55,485 nt of DNA from positions 1-55,485 of the forward strand of contig SVIJ01000004.1 in assembly GCA_015069565.1 (NCBI GenBank). Reading direction: 5' to 3'. The notes below the pieces were generated by a model. The model made no database searches and had not been told where the DNA came from. It worked only from the letters and a program-made list of their open reading frames with translations. Both the position numbers and the translations under genes were made by a program. Of the stretch, positions 32,008 to 40,303 are shown piece by piece (positions within the stretch are counted from its first letter, which is position 1; every line of letters starts with the position of its first letter). Source of the DNA: Clostridiales bacterium. GTDB lineage: Bacteria > Bacillota > Clostridia > Christensenellales > Borkfalkiaceae.

Positions 32008-32721
32008 ATGAAGAATAAGCAAAAACTGTGGATGCGCCTTAGCGCGAACTTGGCGGTAATCGCATTGTCCTTTTCCGTTGCGTTCGTGTGCTTTGCCCCT
32101 GAAAAAGCGGCAACCGTTTCTCTTGAAGACGAAGTATACCGCAAGGGGAACGCAGAAACGGGCGTATCGCTGATGTTCAACGTCTACTGGGGGACGGAAG
32201 AAGTCTACGAGATTTTGGACGTTTTGGACGAATATTTGGCAAAGTCAACCTTTTTCATCGGCGGCTCGTGGGCGGATGATAACGTTGCTTGCGTAAAAGA
32301 GATTGCCGCGCGTGGTCACGAACTTGGCAATCACGGCTATTTTCATAAGGACCACGCAAAGCTTAGCGAGCGAGAAAACAGGGAAGAGATTGCAAGGTGT
32401 AATCAGTTTTTAACCCTGGCAACGGGGCAAGAGCCAACCCTTTTTGCTCCGCCGAGCGGCGCATATTCTTCGGTTGCGGTATCCGTTGCAAAAAGCTTGA
32501 AGATGAAGACGGTGCTTTGGACGAAGGATACGATCGACTGGCGCGATAAAGATGCATCGCTCGTCTATTCGCGCGCAACAAAGGACGTTGCAGGGGGCGC
32601 GCTTGTGCTTATGCACCCGATGGCGCATACGGTAAAGGCATTGCCCGACATATTAAAGGAATACAAAAGACGTGGACTTTCTGTGATTACAGTCACCGAA
32701 AATTTACGCTTGAAGGAGTAA
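32008..32721 (+). CDS. Polysaccharide deacetylase-like sporulation protein (YlxY-like)
   Basis: N-terminal TM; LMFNVYWGTEEV (atypical replacement of TFDDG), KSTFFIGG, HELGNHGYFH; directly upstream of M16 peptidase as in the ylxY-mlpA arrangement. Confidence 0.8.
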   Translation: MKNKQKLWMRLSANLAVIALSFSVAFVCFAPEKAATVSLEDEVYRKGNAETGVSLMFNVYWGTEEVYEILDVLDEYLAKSTFFIGGSWADDNVACVKEIAARGHELGNHGYFHKDHAKLSERENREEIARCNQFLTLATGQEPTLFAPPSGAYSSVAVSVAKSLKMKTVLWTKDTIDWRDKDASLVYSRATKDVAGGALVLMHPMAHTVKALPDILKEYKRRGLSVITVTENLRLKE

Positions 32722-39379: not shown

Positions 39380-39396
39380 TTCGACAAATTACGACA
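39380..39396 (+). promoter_or_regulatory. Tandem Spo0A-box-like sites upstream of spo0A
   Basis: TTCGACA (39380-39386, revcomp TGTCGAA) and TACGACA (39390-39396, revcomp TGTCGTA), 10 bp apart. Confidence 0.6.
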
Positions 39397-39457
39397 AAAT
39401 ATTTTACAATAATTATTAAATATTCGATAAAAATATTAAAATATTGTAAAATAATGC

Positions 39458-39486
39458 TTGTCCTATGCAAAAAAATGTAGTATAAT
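39458..39486 (+). promoter_or_regulatory. spo0A promoter
   Basis: TTGTCC-N17-TATAAT. Confidence 0.6.
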
Positions 39487-39538: not shown

Positions 39539-40303
39539 ATGAAAACGTTTAACGTAGTTTTGTTAGAGAGCAATTTGGCTGCGATGGAGCAGTTAAAGCA
39601 AGCTTTGCAAAAGCATGGCGGTTATCGCGTAATACACGCAGGTGACGACGGTGACGAAGGGATTGTAAAAATCACGCGTGAGCATCCCGACCTTGTTGTC
39701 ACAGGAATGTTCATTAAAGGAACGGATGGATGCGGCGTTATTCAAACGGTAAAAAAGAATTGCAACAATGCGAAGATTGTTGCTTGCGGCGTGGCAAACG
39801 ACGAGTTGATTGAAAAGGCTCTCAATTTAGGCGCACATTATTATTTGGTAAAGCCGTTTTCCGTATCTACCGCGATGGAACGAATCGAAGAGCTAATGGA
39901 AGAAGAAGTCAAGGCGGAAGCGGGCGAATATGCCAACGCGCATAGAAAAGCGGTGACGATTGACGAAAAAATTAGCGAAATCTTTATTTCCATAGGAATT
40001 CCGCCACACATTAAGGGGTATTCGTATCTTCGCGAAGCAATCAAAATGACGGTGGAAACGCCGTACGTAATCAACGCGGTGACAAAGGAATTGTATCCAG
40101 GCGTTGCTAAAATTTATAATACGTCGTCGAGTAAGGTGGAAAGGGCAATTCGTCACGCTATCGAAGTCGCATGGAATCGCGGCAGGGTAGACGCCATCAA
40201 CGCGATTTTCGGTACGCGGATTTACTTAGGTACAGAAAAGCCGACGAACAGCGAGTTTATCGCCTTGGTCGCGGACAAGCTCATTTTAGAAAGTATGATG
40301 TAA
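39539..40303 (+). CDS. spo0A: Spo0A with degenerate receiver domain
   Basis: C-terminal HIKGYSYLREAIKM, KVERAIRHAIEVAWNRG, KPTNSEFIALVADKL are Spo0A-specific; N-terminal receiver-like fold. Confidence 0.92.
   Translation: MKTFNVVLLESNLAAMEQLKQALQKHGGYRVIHAGDDGDEGIVKITREHPDLVVTGMFIKGTDGCGVIQTVKKNCNNAKIVACGVANDELIEKALNLGAHYYLVKPFSVSTAMERIEELMEEEVKAEAGEYANAHRKAVTIDEKISEIFISIGIPPHIKGYSYLREAIKMTVETPYVINAVTKELYPGVAKIYNTSSSKVERAIRHAIEVAWNRGRVDAINAIFGTRIYLGTEKPTNSEFIALVADKLILESMM

Follow-up and report, generated by a model that had tools for sequence, protein, structure and literature searches.

A Spo0A without its phosphoacceptor aspartate in the gut family Borkfalkiaceae, and how such a regulator might be controlled

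How is a sporulation master regulator brought into action when it lacks the residue that normally receives the phosphate? The question is raised by a gene in the 55,485-nucleotide stretch of DNA analysed here (the window; Clostridiales bacterium, contig SVIJ01000004.1, positions 1–55,485). According to one review (PMC11210211), every endospore former starts the process through Spo0A, which is switched on when a conserved Asp is phosphorylated. Spo0A phosphorylation is treated as the universal entry to endospore formation, and the Borkfalkiaceae, uncultured gut bacteria, appear to depart from that. Our preferred reading, to which we give roughly two chances in three, is that the window specifies a single, vertically inherited pseudo-receiver Spo0A which would bind DNA without Asp phosphorylation, its activity being set by abundance and/or by a partner or ligand.

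The gene (39539–40303, + strand), recognised as an open reading frame with domain matches, specifies a single-copy protein of 254 residues. The first-pass annotation had given its interval as 39539–39920, which takes in just the receiver and the first part of the linker and stops short of the gene end at 40303. The whole protein scores 226 bits against NCBIfam TIGR02875 (spore_0_A; cut-off 200) and is thus a Spo0A by that model. The receiver domain matches PF00072 over residues 7–116 (39557–39886, +; 54.1 bits, Pfam), and an intact DNA-binding domain matches PF08769 (Spo0A_C) over residues 145–248 (39971–40282, +; 136.5 bits, cut-off 25, Pfam). The latter is 55–57% identical to the solved Spo0A domain (1FC3/1LQ1).

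Residues are numbered after B. subtilis Spo0A, whose key positions we take to be D10, D11, D56, the Thr and the Lys; this register is consistent with both the PF00072 match and the phmmer alignment to 9xzo, in which PDLVVTG and PDLILTD are independently paired without gaps. On alignment these five positions read E, S, G, C and K in the window protein. Codons 10–11 (GAG AGC, 39566–39571, +) place Glu-Ser where the metal-binding Asp-Asp pair would be, codon 56 (GGA, 39704–39706, +) substitutes Gly for the phosphoacceptor Asp, and codon 83 (TGC, 39785–39787, +) gives Cys at the conserved Thr/Ser position, which is Thr in most congeners. The conserved receiver Lys is retained (codon 105, AAG, 39851–39853, +), as it is in 24 of 24 congeners. 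The replacements at D10-D11, D56 and the Thr/Ser position, as well as the kept Lys and intact DNA-binding domain, had been claimed from the letters alone, and all are borne out. Given E10, S11 and G56, the protein is a Spo0A orthologue but not the canonical phosphorylated Spo0A. It possesses a receiver fold (PF00072 at 54 bits; AlphaFold2 model) without the phosphotransfer residues, that is, a pseudo-receiver.

A second copy was looked for, as the first-pass annotation had proposed, and none was found: there is one Spo0A_C match in the entire assembly (1.27 Mb, 56 contigs, 82.8% complete). The window gene sits at the orthologous place, with synteny conserved among relatives. As the sole Spo0A of the assembly, in conserved synteny, it is neither a paralogue nor the product of a sequencing error; the paralogue alternative offered earlier thus fails. 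Error is further ruled out by G56 and the broken catalytic set being common to congeneric genomes from other assemblies.

For comparison we took relatives within the GTDB family, members of other Christensenellales families and 80 named loci, which partly represent the same genomes as the family set. Named members include Candidatus Coproplasma, Gallimonas and Scatosoma; the placement of Coproplasma in the Borkfalkiaceae, Christensenellales (PMC8035907), is our ground for assigning the window to this family. Among 81 distinct Borkfalkiaceae Spo0A proteins residue 56 is Gly in 26, Ser in 20, Asp in 18, Glu in 9, Asn in 7 and Ala in one. All five receiver catalytic residues are kept in 1/81 of these versus 36/53 proteins from 26 sister families (Fisher p ~2e-18, which is indicative only as related rows were counted as independent), and no named locus has an intact set (0/80). 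D11 persists in 10/81 family members; the 18 that keep D56 nearly all lack D11. On a quick tree, many forks of which are weakly supported, residue 56 has changed at least 25 times and has passed between Asp and not-Asp at least 11 times. Judged from these residues, the Asp-phosphotransfer chemistry is broken family-wide and is not the decay of one strain; loss in a single species is ruled out by the broken set in the family at large and in the named loci. Alignment across relatives had been suggested as a check on whether G56 was clade-wide: the loss is, and G56 recurs in other congeners, but Gly itself accounts for only 26 of the 81.

Glu at residue 56 might be thought to mimic the phosphate. 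In the sister families, where residue 56 is exclusively Asp (44) or Glu (9) and D11 is absent from all nine Glu56 rows, this is a real pattern; as a general explanation for the Borkfalkiaceae, with Glu in 9/81, it is ruled out. Phosphorylation might otherwise fall on another residue or be carried out by Ser/Thr/Tyr kinases, for which one could cite that Ser, found in 37/80 of the named loci, is their most frequent residue at position 56. Since Gly occupies the position in the window and in most congeners, and D10/D11 are lost too, we consider this extremely improbable. A few frames of ~120–135 residues match the Spo0A DNA-binding domain alone (G066:C34 and C4, G019:C16, G113:C25) and are possible receiver-less Spo0A copies.

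Aspartate-less receivers are a known class which includes ChxR, JadR1, RitR and CmrT (PMC4395418, PMC12632262). The window Spo0A resembles these in joining a receiver fold that lacks phosphotransfer residues to a DNA-binding output. They are, however, scattered regulators, whereas the Borkfalkiaceae case concerns the sporulation master regulator across a bacterial family; Spo0A is not mentioned in PMC12632262.

The (beta-alpha)5 fold of the receiver is kept in the AlphaFold2 model (mean pLDDT 86). Median dN/dS is ~0.16 for the receiver and 0.05 for the DNA-binding domain, with dS near saturation; the receiver evolves about three times faster, and the DNA-binding domain is near-invariant among relatives. 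On the model and these ratios, the receiver fold is kept under purifying selection, which is weaker than that on the DNA-binding domain. Residues N12, D37-G38, G61, D63-G64, G84, Y101-Y102 and K105-P106-F107 are invariant in 24/24 congeners; conservation of the pocket region is thus high within the genus even though the phosphorylation chemistry is gone. This conservation favours the main rival to control by abundance, namely a ligand or partner acting via the constrained receiver: Spo0A would be inactive until a metabolite or protein filled the former phosphorylation pocket. Small-molecule binding has indeed been proposed for other pseudo-receivers, JadR1 and RedZ (PMC12632262). The invariant residues may, however, merely hold the fold, and no ligand or dedicated partner gene was identified; the window spo0A has housekeeping-like neighbours (acpP, ABC-F, groEL), with no conserved adjoining partner gene evident among them. 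We think such gating rather unlikely, with about one chance in four.

Where, then, are the kinases? PF02518 (HATPase_c), the one ATPase family on which our kinase count is based, matches six proteins in the window genome: three histidine kinases, two GyrB/ParE-type proteins and MutL. All three kinases adjoin their own regulators, two of OmpR type and one of NarL type, and the four PF00072 receivers are these three regulators plus Spo0A. The search for orphan sporulation kinases, another check put forward at first pass, accordingly yielded none, nor was a stand-alone Spo0F-like receiver found with PF02518/PF00072 in this 82.8% complete genome. An orphan kinase occurs in 47 of 48 surveyed spore formers, the exception being Erysipelatoclostridium ramosum (PMC6136694); the window genome resembles that species in having none detected, and differs from it in that the receiver has additionally lost its phosphorylation site.

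Because the assembly is incomplete a kinase could be missing from it, and an orphan kinase or a second, canonical Spo0A might be hidden by the gaps. This we hold to be very improbable: the same pairing of kinases with receivers is seen in more complete congeners (94–96%), and the window spo0A already occupies the orthologous place. In sister genomes, where kinases were identified by frame size and neighbours and not by Pfam, G036 (96% complete, G56) has two receivers and a single kinase, which is paired; all three kinases of G049 are paired, as are the three of G002. Against kinase loss, one kinase-like frame of 192 residues in G095 has no listed receiver as a neighbour. In G007, a family member with D56 retained, a hybrid histidine kinase (a 662-residue frame) sits immediately upstream of spo0A (C20:18698–21009). 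In the sister family f25 two genomes, G174 (0.9 Mb, 100% complete, E56) and G303 (1.3 Mb, 98% complete, D56), have no PF02518 histidine kinase, and Spo0A is their sole receiver.

The promoter region of spo0A is elaborate. Putative tandem 0A boxes, TTCGACA-aat-TACGACA, lie at 39380–39396 (+) with a start-to-start spacing of 10 bp, followed by two copies of a repeated motif, TATTTTACAATA (39400–39411, − strand; the inverse of TATTGTAAAATA) and TATTGTAAAATA (39442–39453, +), and by a putative sigma-A-type promoter TTGTCC-N17-TATAAT (39458–39486, +), the −35 of which was located by eye and is TTTACA in most congeners. Exact TTCGACA occurs in 15/17 spo0A promoters of the genus versus a background of 0.17 boxes per kb in the rest of these loci, the associated probabilities being only indicative as related genomes were counted as independent. 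Tandem pairs at 10 bp are found in the window and in seven other congeners. Across the family an exact box in either orientation lies upstream of spo0A in 49/76 cases, at rates that differ little with the identity of residue 56. TTCGACA also lies upstream of spoIIGA in 8/15 congeners; the window genome has no exact box at that position. In G049, G088, G095 and G114 the TTCGACA sequence precedes the spoIIA-sigF genes. From these sites Borkfalkiaceae Spo0A appears still to bind its usual DNA sequences. Upstream of spoIIGA in L260, L265 and L266 TTCGACA lies in the loop region of a hairpin that resembles a terminator.

The TATTGTAAAATA-like elements give 32 matches in the 17 promoters versus 1.3 expected from shuffles. 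Taken in both orientations, they are ~60-fold denser in the spo0A promoters of the genus (window, L164–L180) than elsewhere in the same loci.

In domain order, recognition domain, 0A boxes and their 10-bp tandem arrangement the system is like that of Bacillus and Clostridium; it is unlike theirs in that the window Spo0A has neither the phosphoacceptor Asp nor the Asp-Asp pair and has Cys for Thr, and in that neither a phosphorelay nor an orphan kinase was detected in the window genome. Since Spo0A has been kept and still appears to bind DNA without its phosphorylation site, it would be controlled by other means. That much of the first-pass proposal is supported by the catalytic set broken throughout the family and by the lack of an orphan kinase or Spo0F in the window genome; which mode operates (abundance, ligand or partner) is a matter of inference. 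Under our preferred reading, dimerisation of Spo0A on tandem 0A boxes would need no phosphorylated Asp, and the protein would regulate the spo0A promoter itself and, in several relatives, also the operons spoIIG and sigF. Output would be set mainly by the amount of Spo0A made, the main input being the conserved spo0A promoter with its 0A boxes and repeated TATTGTAAAATA elements, at which a sporulation signal could enter. As for the constrained receiver, its contribution is probably either an input that does not involve a phosphoryl group or a dimer interface that is permissive at all times.

The step from an unphosphorylatable to an abundance-controlled Spo0A is one that we infer. The fullest version of the proposal, that a family of gut Clostridia starts sporulation with an unphosphorylatable Spo0A, having discarded the kinases, and decides through Spo0A abundance via an autoregulatory promoter, we put forward tentatively, at somewhat less than even odds. 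If true, the two-component step of sporulation would have been deleted, and the parallel D56E sister lineages, one of them without any kinase found, would represent intermediate or alternative solutions. In the open-access literature searched we found no description of a Spo0A naturally without phosphoacceptor, nor of a bacterial family in which this is the rule. A common gut lineage offers a natural experiment, with many separate changes at residue 56, free kinases lost and Spo0A DNA sites kept, which makes testable how Spo0A operates without phosphate and what the receiver does once phosphorylation is gone.

Do these bacteria sporulate at all? The presence of spo0A serves to predict sporulation from metagenomes, and one study of metagenome-assembled genomes counts Borkfalkiaceae among potential spore formers (PMC11536998). 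SpoIVA was found in 60/60 genomes, weakly in two, and SpoIIGA in 29/30, always under its curated cut-off. The window genome has SigE and a SigH-type sigma factor, and its sigG is apparently split across contigs C38 and C25; SigF/SigG-type genes are present in sister genomes. By gene content the Borkfalkiaceae are possibly spore formers. Sporulation might instead have been lost and constraint relaxed, leaving Spo0A as a stationary-phase regulator or a decaying relic. Small genomes, the high variability of residue 56, the roughly threefold faster receiver and the sub-threshold SpoIIGA would fit such a history, and non-sporulation targets of Spo0A are conceivable. Yet a Spo0A-like match (E ≤ 0.001) is retained in 150/151 family genomes, some via weak receiver matches only, alongside the SpoIVA genes; the sigma cascade is kept, frames are open, 0A boxes are conserved and receiver dN/dS is well below 1. 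We judge this history quite unlikely. The two weak SpoIVA matches, which are also partial, both belong to genus g10 (G056, G130), where spore-coat assembly may have been lost or remodelled. In the window itself, 32008–32721 encodes a polysaccharide deacetylase similar to YlxY/PdaB, which are sporulation proteins, with scores under the cut-offs for these.
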